In this document: piece by piece, positions 727 through 6,194 of the stretch | Layout of the letters: each line of letters starts with the position of its first letter | How positions within the stretch are numbered: the first letter of the stretch is position 1 | Assembly (NCBI GenBank): GCA_030694265.1 | Contig: JAUXYP010000001.1 | Span: 434,001-498,000, forward strand | From: Sulfuricurvum sp. | GTDB taxonomy: Bacteria; Campylobacterota; Campylobacteria; Campylobacterales; Sulfurimonadaceae | Direction: 5' to 3' | DNA: 64,000 bases | Notes under the pieces: model-generated | Seen by the model: only the letters and a program-made list of their open reading frames with translations | Told to the model about the DNA's origin: nothing | Database searches by the model: none | Made by a program: the position numbers and the translations under genes

Positions 727-2469
727 ATGCAAACAAACACTTCTGATACTTTTCGATTTTTACCGACTACCCGTGCCGAAATGGATGCACGAGGTTGGGA
801 TCAGTGTGATGTGATCCTCATTAATGGGGATGCGTATATTGATTCCCCTTTTATCGGCATTGCGGCTGTAGGACGTATACTAGAGCGTGAGGGATATCGC
901 GTGGGTATTATCGGTCAGCCTGATGTTACCAGCGATGTGGACATTAAACGCCTTGGTGAACCGCGTCTTTTTTGGGGAGTGAGCGGCGGTAGTGTTGATT
1001 CGATGGTTTCCAACTACACCGCAACCAAAAAATTCCGCAACAGCGATGATTATACCCCTGGCGGTGTAAACAACAAACGTCCCGATCGTGCGACGCTGGT
1101 CTACACCAATCTCATCCGTCAATATTATAAAAATACCGTTCCAATAGTCTTGGGAGGGATAGAAGCAAGCTTGCGCCGTGTGACCCATTATGACTATTGG
1201 ACGAACAAACTGCGTAAACCGATTTTGCTTGATGCCAAAGCTGATTTTTTGATCTACGGAATGGGCGAGGGAGCGATTATCGCTCTACCAAAAGCATTGG
1301 AACGTGGCGAATCCCCCCATAACATACGCGGAGTCTGTTACATTGCCAAAGAACCTCGTAAAGATTATTTGATGTTGCCCTCGCACAAAGAGTGTTTGGA
1401 AAATAAAGAGAAGTATATAGACCTATTTGATGCATTTTATGACAATAACGATCCGATTTCAGCTGAAGGATTGTGTCAAGAGGTAGACGGACGCTACAGT
1501 ATCCAAAATCCTCCTGCCGATTATCTCGATGAGAACGAGATGGATGCCGTATCCGCACTCCCGTTTACCCGTGAACTTCACCCCTATCATCAGCCGCAAG
1601 GAGCAGTGAAGTGTTTGGAAACGATTAAATTCTCTATTATGACCCATCAGGGATGTTGGGGAGAGTGTAACTTTTGTGCCATCGGCGTCCATCAGGGGCG
1701 TACGATCCGAACACGTAGCGAAGAGTCGATATTAAAAGAGGCGACACAGTTTACTGAGTATAAAGATTTCAAGGGGATCATTAGCGATGTGGGCGGTCCT
1801 ACTGCCAATATGTACGGCTATGAGTGTAACAAAAAACTCAAACACGGTACGTGTGCCCATCAGCGCTGTGTAGATGATACGCATCTATGCAAATCGATGA
1901 AAGTAGACCATACCCGTATCATTAATCTTTTGCGTCGTATGCGTGAGGTACGAGGGGTTAAAAAAGCATTTGTCGCTTCAGGGGTGCGGTATGATCTGAT
2001 CAATGAGGATAAGAAGCAAGGCTATGAGTATCTCAAAGAGATGGTAAAGCATCACATATCAGGGCAGATGAAAGTGGCACCCGAACATACCTCAGATCAT
2101 GTTTTGCATCTGATGAACAAACCGGGGAAACAAACCCTCGTCGATTTTAAAAAGCTTTACGATCAGCTCAACCGAGAAGAGGGGAAAAAGCAATTTTTGA
2201 CCTATTATCTCATCGCAGCTCATCCGGGTTGTACTGAAAAAGACATGCATGATCTGAAACGTTTTACGACAGATGAACTCAAGATGAATCCTGAGCAGGC
2301 ACAAGTATTCACACCGACACCGGGTACGTACTCGGCCGTGATGTACTACACCGAAATGGATCCAAAAACGAGAGAAAAAATCTTTGTCGAAAAAGACACC
2401 GCACGAAAAGAAAAACAAAAGCAGATTGTTGTCCAAAAGGACAATTTTAAAAGCGGATTTGGGAGTTAG
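727..2469 (+). CDS. ygiQ: YgiQ family radical SAM protein
   Basis: 580 residues, the usual size for the YgiQ (UPF0313) family of radical S-adenosylmethionine enzymes. The N-terminus carries the family hallmark FLPTT followed by an INGDAYID block and a GGSVDSMVSNYTA stretch. The radical SAM cluster motif is C310, C314 and C317 (C-x3-C-x2-C, in GCWGECNFC), giving three cysteines for a 4Fe-4S cluster that cleaves SAM. A KVAPEHTSDHVL segment and a C-terminal extension are also typical. The substrate of the family is unknown to me. The gene stands alone, divergent from the HEPN gene and convergent with the SOR-like gene, with a shared hairpin terminator between. The start at 727 fits the family N-terminus but has no ribosome-binding site. 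Confidence 0.93.
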   Translation: MQTNTSDTFRFLPTTRAEMDARGWDQCDVILINGDAYIDSPFIGIAAVGRILEREGYRVGIIGQPDVTSDVDIKRLGEPRLFWGVSGGSVDSMVSNYTATKKFRNSDDYTPGGVNNKRPDRATLVYTNLIRQYYKNTVPIVLGGIEASLRRVTHYDYWTNKLRKPILLDAKADFLIYGMGEGAIIALPKALERGESPHNIRGVCYIAKEPRKDYLMLPSHKECLENKEKYIDLFDAFYDNNDPISAEGLCQEVDGRYSIQNPPADYLDENEMDAVSALPFTRELHPYHQPQGAVKCLETIKFSIMTHQGCWGECNFCAIGVHQGRTIRTRSEESILKEATQFTEYKDFKGIISDVGGPTANMYGYECNKKLKHGTCAHQRCVDDTHLCKSMKVDHTRIINLLRRMREVRGVKKAFVASGVRYDLINEDKKQGYEYLKEMVKHHISGQMKVAPEHTSDHVLHLMNKPGKQTLVDFKKLYDQLNREEGKKQFLTYYLIAAHPGCTEKDMHDLKRFTTDELKMNPEQAQVFTPTPGTYSAVMYYTEMDPKTREKIFVEKDTARKEKQKQIVVQKDNFKSGFGS

Positions 2470-2480
2470 AAGAGAATAGG

Positions 2481-2520
2481 GCAAAAGGCTGGATAAAGTT
2501 TCTCAGCCTCTTGCAAATTT
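2481..2520. terminator. Bidirectional hairpin terminator
   Basis: GCAAAAGGCTG (2481-2491) pairs with CAGCCTCTTGC (2504-2514) with one mismatch, followed by AAATTTTTATTT on the plus strand. It lies between the converging ygiQ and SOR-like genes and can serve the plus strand best. Confidence 0.65.
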
Positions 2521-2928
2521 TTATTTACTAAATTTAGTAATCCATAAATCATGGATATTGCAAAAGCTCAGCGCATACAACTCTGTATATTTACCTTCAA
2601 TCACATAGGTAGAAATGGCTTTTTTATCCTGTGGGAAAAAGACTTGCTCTCCTAAAACATTGCCGTTGCTATCACGAAGTGAATGCTTGACAATGTAATG
2701 CGCTTCAGACATACCATGCTTTGTTTCCACAGTGACTTTGTTACCCTCTATTGTAACTACAGGTGCATGACTGCCTGCCTTACCTTCCCATCTCCCTTGA
2801 TGTTCTTGAGTATAGGCGAAAATATTTGCCTTTGAATCCTCGGCAGCAGATGCTGGTAATACGGTAGCAGCTACAAGACCTGCAGATGTTGCTAATGAAG
2901 CTTTAAGAAAATTTCTACGATTTTGCAT
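2521..2928 (-). CDS. Tat-exported superoxide-reductase-like (desulfoferrodoxin family) protein
   Basis: 135 residues. A twin-arginine signal (NRRNFLKAS, residues 3-11) is followed by a hydrophobic stretch and an ASA cleavage site near residue 28, so the mature protein of about 107 residues should be periplasmic. The remainder aligns by eye with class II superoxide reductase: H54, H71 (HGM) and H77 (HYI) match the equatorial histidines, and the C-terminal CNIHDLW motif supplies C123 and H126 for the mononuclear Fe(His4Cys) site. The Glu-Lys pair that normally precedes the first ligand histidine is Gly-Ser here (G52-S53), so classical superoxide reduction is uncertain. An alternative is a related iron protein with another electron-transfer role. 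A good ribosome-binding site (AAGGATAAAAA) precedes the ATG. Confidence 0.75.
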   Translation of the reverse strand: MQNRRNFLKASLATSAGLVAATVLPASAAEDSKANIFAYTQEHQGRWEGKAGSHAPVVTIEGNKVTVETKHGMSEAHYIVKHSLRDSNGNVLGEQVFFPQDKKAISTYVIEGKYTELYALSFCNIHDLWITKFSK

Positions 2929-2995
2929 TTTTTATCCTTATTTATAGTTTCTGTAATATAGCAAGTAATAACTTAAGTATATTATTGCTATTTTT

Positions 2996-3511
2996 TTAGT
3001 TTTTAAGAACATCATACCCAGCAGGAATAGAGGGCTGGAAACGACTAGAAGGGATTGCAGCATTATGCGAAGGTTTCAAAAACTGTATGGTGACTTTATT
3101 ATCATAGCCATCTTTGTATTGAATGGCACTCAATAAATCGTTTTTAAAAGTAATTGTATAAGCTTGTCCGTTTACCGATGCAGTATAGTGGTCATTGTCA
3201 ATTTTTTTGGCTTTTTTGATAATCTCTAAAAAGTCGATTTCATCTCCCAGTGAGCGAATAGTTGCTTGCTCCAACTGCGGTTCTAAAATTACCAAACGTT
3301 TGGCATTGATATAAACACTTTTTTGTATCGGTTTTTGGTACGACCACAGAGCATTTTGAGGTTTAGCAGCCCAAAGCTCACCACGGTAAACGATCACTTT
3401 GCCATGCTCATCGACAATACGTTGCTCAAAAGGAGAATTAAAGGAGTTGATGTCTTGCGGAGAAGCGAACAATATTAGGGATAATAAAGATAATAAGGGT
3501 AAAAAGCGCAC
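2996..3511 (-). CDS. lolA: Outer-membrane lipoprotein carrier protein LolA
   Basis: LolA carries lipoproteins across the periplasm from the Lol permease to the outer membrane. From the GTG at 3511 the product has 171 residues: a signal peptide (RFLPLLSLLSLILFASPQ), then a LolA-like beta-sheet region with FEQRIVDEHGKVIVYRGELW and a PQNALWSY segment typical of the family. A longer frame to an ATG at 3568 exists, but the GTG is preceded by AAGGA at ideal spacing and gives a proper signal peptide, so I choose it. It is divergent from secA, and a LolC/E-type permease lies directly after secA, so two Lol components and the Sec motor are clustered. The C-terminal half is divergent, as is common in Campylobacterota. 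Confidence 0.82.
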   Translation of the reverse strand: MRFLPLLSLLSLILFASPQDINSFNSPFEQRIVDEHGKVIVYRGELWAAKPQNALWSYQKPIQKSVYINAKRLVILEPQLEQATIRSLGDEIDFLEIIKKAKKIDNDHYTASVNGQAYTITFKNDLLSAIQYKDGYDNKVTIQFLKPSHNAAIPSSRFQPSIPAGYDVLKN

Positions 3512-3626
3512 AAATTTCCTTGTTGTGTAGATAAAGAATTGTACCATCATACCCATTAACCAAAACAATAGTATTCCTGTGTTAAAATCAGCGACTTTTT
3601 ACATACAGAACTTATGAAGGTAATCA

Positions 3627-6194
3627 ATGCTCCAATCATTTATCGGAAAACTCTTTGGCACAAAAAACGATCGAGAAGTTAAAAAATATCTTGAGCGTGT
3701 TGCGCAAATCAATGCGCGTGAAACACACTTTTCAAGCTTGGATGATGCGTCACTTCAAAACGCTTTTGCCCTTTTAAAAGAGTCCGTATTAAATGGAAGC
3801 CGTTCATTAGAGGATGTCCTAGTCGATTCGTTTGCAATTACCCGTGAAGCGAGTAAGCGTGTATTAGGTATGCGTCATTTTGATGTTCAGCTATTGGGCG
3901 GTATGGTACTGCATGACGGGCGTATTGCTGAGATGAAAACGGGAGAGGGTAAAACGCTTGTTGCAACTCTTGCGGTCATTCTTAATGCGATGACGGGTGA
4001 AGGGGTTCACGTTGTGACGGTTAATGATTACCTTGCCTCCCGCGATGGAACGCAGATGTCAGCTCTTTATGCATTTTTAGGTTTTGAGACAGGAATTTTA
4101 CTGGAAGGGGACCATAACCCTGCCAATAAGCGTCTTCAATACAGTGCCCATATCACGTATGGAACGAACAACGAATTTGGATTTGATTACCTGCGCGACA
4201 ACATGACCTATTCAAAAGAGCATATGGTTCAGCGTAATCATGCTTTTGTTATCGTCGATGAGGTGGATTCGATTTTGATCGATGAAGCACGTACTCCGTT
4301 GATTATTTCAGGACCTACCAACCGTGCATTGGAAAACTACACACGCGCGGATCTGGTTGCTAAAGCACTCATCAAGGATGAACATTTCACGGTAGATGAA
4401 AAAGATCGTCTTATTTTGACTACCGAAGAGGGAATTATCAAAGCGGAAGAACTCTTTGGTGTCGATAATTTGTACAGCATTGAAAACTCTTCTCTGTCTC
4501 ACCACTTGGACCAAGCACTCAAAGCAAACTATTTGTTCGAAGCAGACGTTGATTATGTATTGCAAGACGATCAAGTGGTTATCGTGGATGAGTTTACCGG
4601 ACGTCTGTCTGAGGGACGCCGTTTTTCTGAGGGGCTGCACCAAGCGCTTGAGGCTAAAGAGGGTGTCATTATCAAAGAAGAGACCCAAACACTTGCCGAT
4701 ATTACTTTCCAAAACTATTTTAGAATGTATAAAAAAATCGGAGGAATGACCGGTACAGCACAAACAGAAGCGACCGAATTTTCTCAAATATACAATTTGG
4801 ATGTTATCTCTATCCCTACGAATGTTCCTGTTATTCGTAAAGATTTGAATGACCTCATTTATAAAACCGAAAGTGAAAAATTTTCTGCTGTTATTGAAAA
4901 GATTAAAGAATTGCATGCCAAAGGGCAGCCGGTTCTTATCGGTACCGCATCGATTGAAAAATCTGAAAAACTGCACCTCCTTATCAAAGGAGAAAAAATA
5001 CCTCACACGGTTTTGAATGCTAAAAACCACACGCAAGAGGGTGAAATCATTAAAAACGCAGGAGCCAAGGGAGCGATTACGATCGCTACGAATATGGCTG
5101 GACGCGGTGTAGACATCAAAGTAAGTGATGAGATCAAAGAACTGGGCGGTTTGTACATCCTAGGGACAGAGCGGCATGAAAATCGCCGTATCGACAATCA
5201 GTTGCGTGGACGTTCAGGACGTCAAGGCGATCCGGGAACGACACAATTTTATTTGAGTCTTGAAGATAATCTTCTCCGTATTTTCGGTTCGGATAAGATC
5301 AAGTCGATCATGGAGCGCTTAGGGGTTGAAGACGGCGAGTATATCGAATCTTCAATGGTGACACGTGCCGTCGAGAAAGCACAGAAAAAAGTCGAAAATA
5401 TGCACTTCGAGGGACGTAAACACATTGTTGAATACGATGATGTTGCGAATGAACAACGTAAGATCGTGTATAAATTTCGTGGCGAGCTTCTCGATCCTGC
5501 TTATGATGTTGCGACTAAAATCGATACGATACGTGAAGAGTATATCGCTCGGGCATTGGCATTAAGCGGAATTTTCGAGGGTGCATCTCAAGAGGAAATT
5601 AATCTTGATAAATTGGTGTTAATGTTCCAAGAAGAGCTCAATTCTATGGTAGATACGGCTCTTTATACGGAGAAAACGTACAGTGCGATTTTAAATAAGT
5701 CGATTGAAGTGTTAAAAGAACAATACGATGCAAAAATGTTGGTTATCGACCCATCTACGCGTTCCAATATTGAGCGTGAAATTTATCTCAAAACGCTTGA
5801 TACCGCATGGCGTGAGCATTTATACCAAATGGACAGTATGAAAACGGGTATACGCTTACGTGCCTATAACCAAAAAGATCCATTGGTTGAATATAAAAAA
5901 GAGAGTTATAACCTCTTTAGCGAGCTTGTAGGGACAATCAAATACGATACGATCAAGACGCTTCATGTTATTCAGTTTAGGGTGGAAAATGTTGAAGAAG
6001 AGGCAGAAGCGTTAGCAAAACAAATGGAAATCCAAAAACGTCAAGAAGAGTTGCAGATGTCACTCAATCATACAAGCAGTGAACTAGAAAGCTCAAAAAT
6101 TGCACGCAACGATGATTGTCCTTGCGGAAGCGGATTAAAATATAAAAACTGTTGCGGTAAATCAGGACCTAAAAAAGGGGCATTCGCCTCTTGA
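3627..6194 (+). CDS. secA: Preprotein translocase ATPase SecA
   Basis: 855 residues, normal SecA length. SecA is the motor that pushes unfolded preproteins through SecYEG. Visible features are the DEAD-type Walker A (GEGKT, 105-109), the Walker B region IVDEVDSIL near 210-218, the preprotein-crosslinking domain, a [12 protein letters not shown] motif, the second nucleotide-binding fold with NMAGRGVDI and [17 protein letters not shown], and a C-terminal zinc-binding tail with C831, C833, C842 and C843 (the last probably a His/Cys ligand variant). The ATG has AAGG nine bases upstream. The LolC/E-like permease gene begins within the last codons, so the two are translationally coupled. Confidence 0.98.

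Follow-up and report, generated by a model that had tools for sequence, protein, structure and literature searches.

Superoxide reductases (SORs) usually, though not by definition, carry a Glu-Lys pair directly before the first histidine ligand of the iron. An open reading frame of Sulfuricurvum sp. encodes a putative exported SOR in which Gly-Ser takes the place of this pair, and the question arises whether such a protein still removes superoxide or has acquired another function. The frame lies in a 64,000-nucleotide stretch of the genome, here termed the window. Defence against superoxide in the periplasm is generally attributed to exported superoxide dismutases (SODs). The presence of a clade of Tat-exported SORs in sulfur oxidisers, cable bacteria and other Desulfobulbales suggests a reductive periplasmic route, and the clade, with no Glu at position -2 and a Lys shifted by three positions, represents a natural experiment on the residues that SOR catalysis needs. 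Positions are counted back from the first histidine ligand. The features of the locus are as follows.

2521..2928, minus strand: TAT-SOR gene, 135-amino-acid Tat-exported superoxide-reductase-like protein (open reading frame, translation, PF01880, AlphaFold2 model)
2845..2928, minus strand: predicted Tat signal peptide, residues 1-28 (RRNFLK...ASA), cleavage after A28 judged by eye (TIGR01409; RR in the family)
2530..2790, minus strand: SOR domain, residues 47-133, from W47 to the last strand (PF01880 over residues 51-130; alignment to solved SORs over 37-133)
2767..2781, minus strand: K50-A-G-S-H54, invariant Lys at -4 and first iron ligand, Gly-Ser replacing Glu-Lys (K at -4 in 97/97 distinct cores)
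2698..2718, minus strand: H71-x-M-x-x-x-H77, second and third His ligands (invariant in 35/35)
2551..2562, minus strand: C123-N-I-H126, Cys and fourth His ligand (invariant in 35/35)
2996..3568, minus strand: lolA, 67 bases upstream of the TAT-SOR gene (PF03548)
727..2469, plus strand: convergent radical-SAM gene downstream of the TAT-SOR gene (PF08497, PF04055), presumably YgiQ-like

Fold and export signal

The frame is open for 135 amino acids, and the translated sequence matches PF01880 (Desulfoferrodox) over the cut-off (32 bits vs 22.2). It falls far below the cut-offs of the NCBIfam desulfoferrodoxin models TIGR00332 (24.2 vs 61.9 bits) and TIGR00320 (22.4 vs 146.9 bits). An AlphaFold2 model of the protein, built from a 35-row alignment, has a mean pLDDT of 83.8; the block means are 92-98 for the part after residue 40. 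SORs fill the best 19 of the 50 rows listed by VIA-align for this model (Z 11.4-14.3), where rows less than 1 Z apart count as tied. Tied among the best structural matches are Ignicoccus hospitalis SOR (E23A entry, Z 14.3, 2.8 Å over 105 residues; wild type, Z 13.6, 2.7 Å over 103 residues) and Desulfoarculus baarsii SOR (2ji1; Z 13.8, 1.7 Å over 86 residues). Nanoarchaeum equitans neelaredoxin (6gq8; 1.6 Å over 91 residues) and Giardia SOR (1.5 Å over 85 residues) both score Z 13.1, and the Giardia protein is also the first row of a Foldseek search. The predicted model thus displays the SOR fold. The preliminary description had called the protein SOR-like; both the PF01880 match and the structure prediction, which solved SORs match best, agree with this.

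Among the rows listed, SoxYZ chains come next after the SORs, at Z 10.0, and the fold class is shared. A sulfur-handling relative of SoxY/SoxZ that carries or senses sulfane sulfur in this sulfur oxidiser would be in keeping with that rank, with a weak match to the SoxY model TIGR04488 (E 0.0051; 17.2 bits vs a cut-off of 125) and with the presence of five SoxY-like proteins, ending in a C-terminal GGC-G/S motif, among the weakest PF01880 matches. The TIGR04488 match, however, extends over the signal peptide, and the solved SORs outscore the SoxYZ chains. In addition, the four His and the Cys ligands are all invariant, and the iron ligand C123 is the only cysteine, with no GGCGG arm. The sulfur-handling reading is very improbable. 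As a SoxY-like sulfur carrier the protein was rejected, the C-terminal GGCGG carrier cysteine that marks SoxY being missing. The weak PF01880 matches of the five SoxY-like proteins (in L079, L080, L081, L083 and L084), and the rank of SoxYZ next to the SORs in fold, hint that SoxY/SoxZ and SOR domains share an ancestor.

The N-terminus consists of RRNFLK, a hydrophobic stretch and ASA. It is over the cut-off of the twin-arginine model TIGR01409 (20.2 vs 16.7 bits) and below that of PF10518, TAT_signal (19.3 vs 22.7 bits). TatC is encoded in the source genome. Of the 103 pooled rows of the family, 101 have the RR pair close to the N-terminus; the exceptions are L133, which is truncated by a contig end, and L118, which has no in-frame signal. 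The Tat signal of the preliminary description is therefore confirmed at the sequence level. Tat export implies folding with iron ahead of transport. The SORGOdb description defines a TAT-SOR class by active site II and an N-terminal twin-arginine signal (PMC3116461), and both sequence features are found in the window protein. One divergent member (L134:4734-5300) has a longer N-terminus with WGCG after the twin-arginine stretch and may be a SOR exported as a Tat lipoprotein.

The loop before the first histidine

All five iron ligands named at the outset, H54, H71, H77, C123 and H126, proved correct; they are invariant in 35 of 35 aligned sequences, which is the ligand set of a SOR, and PF01880 is matched by all 35. 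The other invariant positions in this alignment are W47, K50, P56, M73, I79, G89, D101, S121 and N124. The translation also bears out that Gly52-Ser53 precede H54 and that the usual Glu-Lys is absent. Relatives at 33-90% identity keep both the ligands and the loop, and the arrangement is therefore not a product of chance or decay; a pseudogene or chance reading is ruled out by conservation across phyla.

The loop does contain a lysine. K50, at -4, is the sole basic residue between W47 and H54, and Lys occupies this position in 35 of 35 aligned members; the first loop extraction required K or R at -4, yet it dropped none of the 35. A pattern that does not require Lys gave the same residue in 68 of 68 Desulfobulbales proteins (68 of 69 strong matches). 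The 69th, L167, has CDIH instead of CNIH and, by eye, K at -4. The two sets (35 + 68) pool to 97 distinct cores, all with K at -4, none with Lys or Arg at -1 and none with Glu or Asp at -2. The -1 residue of the family is S, G, T, I or A, and the -2 residue is G, A, K, Q or P. Glu is present at -3 in 17 of the 97, and the window protein has no Glu there. The preliminary description had held that a Glu or Lys elsewhere near the pocket would speak against an altered function; in the aligned sequences the clade-invariant Lys50 appears to be such a residue.

Three groups of SORs retrieved in the searches served as controls; they are no random sample, and the cytosolic set is weighted toward the matches with the best scores. 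Cytosolic-type SORs of Campylobacterales have R or K at -1 and D at -2 (41/41 for each). A second Tat clade of Campylobacterales has K at -1 in 37 of 37 and E at -3 in 36 of 37. Two-iron-type SORs from other Desulfobulbales genomes, 11 proteins taken from many weaker matches, have K at -1 and E at -2 throughout (11/11). Lys at -4 is found in none of these 89 proteins (41 + 37 + 11). Left out of the counts were a fragment at L078:5656-6045, L066 (second clade) and the unsorted L061 and L077; by eye, L066 and L061 carry a -1 Lys, and L077, which is truncated by the end of its contig, has the sequence ELKH. The aligned proteins indicate that each SOR group keeps a basic residue just before the first ligand, and that among these groups only the present clade has it at -4.

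The second Tat-exported clade comprises most of L034-L076 (for example L043:950-1420) and combines a -1 Lys with a -3 Glu. The omitted L078 fragment is an incomplete SOR copy, and an intact cytosolic-type SOR lies a few kb away. The fragment has an unrelated N-terminus, has lost the first His ligands and is probably the product of a duplication.

A tree without the loop columns (83 rows, 93 columns; 44 pooled family members, 14 cytosolic, 14 second-Tat and 11 two-iron proteins) places the clade on one side of a branch with support 100/99, set apart from the cytosolic, second-Tat and two-iron groups; relations between the groups are unsure because the program flagged long branches and the columns are few.

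Comparison with solved SORs shows that the arrangement has a partial parallel in archaea. In a profile alignment, the wild-type I. hospitalis SOR (4bk8) displays K-A-E-T-H, which aligns ungapped with K50-A-G-S-H54. The residue at -1 is read as Thr because PDB titles name E23A (4brv) and T24K (4brj) mutants. This SOR thus resembles the window protein in having Lys at -4 and a non-Lys residue, Thr24, at -1, and it is still catalogued as a superoxide reductase. Unlike the window protein, it keeps Glu23 at -2, and it aligns from its own residue 1-2, with no export signal in the match. Pyrococcus horikoshii SOR has Lys at -4 in addition to Glu-Lys in the profile alignment; a -4 Lys is therefore not unique to the clade, which is marked by having no other. 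N. equitans neelaredoxin is reportedly a one-iron SOR without the conserved Glu, and is filed as a SOR nonetheless. It is like the window protein in both respects, as compared by structure match and not by loop sequence, but has no export signal in the match (chain 1-109 vs model 37-135). The two-iron D. baarsii SOR aligns with the model over its catalytic domain, has an extra N-terminal iron domain that is absent from the window protein, and reportedly carries the canonical Glu47-Lys48. The second Tat clade is alike in its twin-arginine start, SOR site and bacterial order; it differs in its loop residues and in its separate place on the tree.

Exported SORs are already a named class. SORGOdb (2011; PMC3116461) predicted seven TAT-SORs, naming Desulfovibrio salexigens, Desulfuromonas acetoxidans and Geobacter uraniireducens; the window protein is like this class in active site II and the twin-arginine signal, the comparison with the seven being by class definition. 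In Sulfurimonas of oxygenated plumes a TAT-1Fe-SOR is described as highly transcribed, and periplasmic superoxide scavenging has been proposed (PMC10066037). A superoxide reductase of unspecified type is listed among abundant antioxidant proteins in a paper on cable bacteria. No description of a -4 Lys or of Glu-Lys loss in TAT-SORs was found in open-access full text, and no kinetics bearing on the Glu-Lys question in open-access papers. What appears to be new, and it is modest, is a TAT-SOR clade with a relocated lysine.

Distribution of relatives

A sample of the source's order gave matches in one of 298 genomes, the source itself. In the source's family, 14 of 228 genomes have matches at E ≤ 0.01; ten of these are strong, the source's own included, three match weakly over the full length at 28% identity, and one matches in the signal alone. 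A scan of GTDB contigs, which undercounts because an exact 8-residue match is needed, returned 42 loci. Thirty-two (L103-L134) are relatives over the SOR domain; nine others (L135, L136 and L138-L144) were rejected as matching at the N-terminal end only, and L137 was dropped because it is a SOR of the two-iron type and carries Glu-Lys. L103-L109 were kept out of the alignment, since their identity and place marked them as the same genes as family-search loci. The relatives are labelled Campylobacterota, Bacteroidetes/Bacteroidales, Chlorobiota, Gammaproteobacteria, Desulfobacteraceae/Desulfobulbaceae including cable bacteria, Aminicenantes/Acidobacteria and Planctomycetota. The Tat-exported clade is thus labelled in at least six phyla, where single labels may represent binning errors because most records are metagenome-assembled genomes (MAGs). 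Of the four nearest GTDB relatives (79-90% identity), all MAGs, three carry the label Sulfuricurvum and the fourth the label Epsilonproteobacteria.

In Desulfobulbales, the order of Candidatus Electrothrix marina according to NCBI, 69 of 257 genomes, by a count made by eye, have a strong match over the full length, at 161 bits or more; partial matches in G681, G636 and G591 were left out, and one of the 69 (G799) has a stop inside the match. Searches of plasmids and phages gave weak SOR-domain or chance matches only, and viral contigs gave no match. The patchy occurrence across phyla is compatible with horizontal transfer, which SORGOdb states for sor genes in general (PMC3116461).

Gene surroundings and proposed function

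The window protein is probably a periplasmic one-iron superoxide reductase in which K50 substitutes for the catalytic lysine. Most likely the enzyme still removes superoxide with a rearranged active-site loop, and no new function has arisen. Superoxide has been described as binding to SORs at the open sixth site of Fe(II). The Lys near the iron attracts the anion and helps protonation, and the Glu closes the oxidised site. The protein would fold and load iron in the cytosol before Tat carries it to the periplasm, where superoxide would be reduced to hydrogen peroxide at the Fe(II)-His4-Cys centre. Lys50 would supply the positive charge and proton relay, as Lys at -1 does in canonical SORs. That Lys50 does the work of the catalytic lysine is proposed because the Glu is gone and no other basic residue lies between W47 and H54. 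The peroxide might pass to a periplasmic cytochrome c peroxidase; a candidate is the one CCP_MauG protein of the genome. Also counted in favour is a separate SOR of the cytosolic type in the source genome, which matches PF01880 more strongly than the window protein does and has Asp-Arg ahead of its first His.

Counted against a SOR are the low NCBIfam scores, the lack of a redox neighbour in the window and the variable surroundings of the relatives. The source genome (2.15 Mb in 23 contigs) also has three Fe/Mn-SOD matches, and a need for another superoxide defence is therefore not obvious.

The neighbours in the window, lolA, the radical-SAM gene and then secA, include no adjoining redox gene and give no functional hint. 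By eye, the four nearest relatives share radical-SAM and lolA surroundings, not always adjacent, and adjacency to lolA varies among Sulfuricurvum loci. A promoter and terminator scan gave nothing above shuffles. Among relatives the nearest neighbours differ from group to group, and no partner gene shared by the whole clade was found among the 25 largest neighbour clusters of the 32 loci. A thioredoxin-like gene lies upstream on the same strand in L108 and L109.

One locus is more informative. On a single strand, L122, a Deltaproteobacteria MAG, encodes a partial multihaem-type protein, recognised by eye from CxxCH motifs, together with a cluster (1135-4292) that comprises a Glu-Lys-bearing two-iron SOR, a ferritin, the family gene and a flavodiiron-type protein with metallo-lactamase and flavodoxin domains, the last lying about 30 bases downstream of the family gene. 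The set of two-iron SOR, ferritin and flavodiiron-type protein points to oxygen-stress defence. A flavodiiron-type protein could serve nitric oxide as well as oxygen. This neighbour has a bearing on the alternative that loss of Glu-Lys marks an altered periplasmic iron enzyme, whose main substrate would be peroxide, nitric oxide or another small oxidant. Such an enzyme would accord with the loss of both canonical residues in every distinct member, and the clade, separate from the three SOR groups and widespread, may have its own role; the cytosolic SOR and the SODs already present in the source genome fit it too. But the two-iron SOR and ferritin of L122 suit superoxide equally, the window's own neighbours are uninformative, the Lys at -4 is kept in all members of the clade, and I. 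hospitalis SOR has the same spacing with Thr at -1. The invariance of the -4 Lys weakens an altered function, which is unlikely. What stands of the earlier interpretation, as read from the sequence, is a Tat-exported SOR-like iron protein without Glu-Lys; its proposal of a function shifted toward peroxide, nitric oxide or sulfur species has no positive support.

An electron donor may be encoded next to some relatives. A 4Fe-4S protein lies upstream on the same strand in L110, L120 and L121, at 98, 85 and 526 bases, the L120 protein being a fragment recognised by similarity. These proteins (L110:3448-4809, L121:3-1028 and L120:1-234) are in Bacteroidetes/Chlorobiota MAGs and are candidate donors; that of L110 starts with a hydrophobic stretch, and an FMN reductase is found downstream of the family gene in the same locus. 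As redox partners in either direction they would also suit a periplasmic iron electron carrier or redox sensor that is not an enzyme, as would the one-electron nature of the iron centre and the lack of a fixed partner gene. Yet the window protein has no interaction or signalling domain, its fold and open sixth site are as in SOR, and conservation centres on the iron site and its Lys; a carrier or sensor is quite improbable. A one-iron SOR remains the preferred reading. A broader scenario is conceivable if doubtful, in which a widespread, horizontally spread periplasmic clade has rebuilt the SOR loop, without the closing Glu and with the guiding Lys three residues earlier. The result would be a permanently open, export-adapted site with its own periplasmic or membrane electron donor, perhaps the upstream Fe-S protein, and possibly a substrate beyond superoxide.

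A further gene was noted in five Desulfobulbales loci. It encodes an uncharacterised protein for which no Pfam match over cut-off was found in the three tested.

Downstream uncharacterised protein: L124:3393-5102, L125:635-2617, L129:5478-7388, L131:3074-3790 and L132:5489-7282

The protein comprises 570-661 amino acids, is partial in L131, and is encoded directly downstream of the family gene in four of the five loci.
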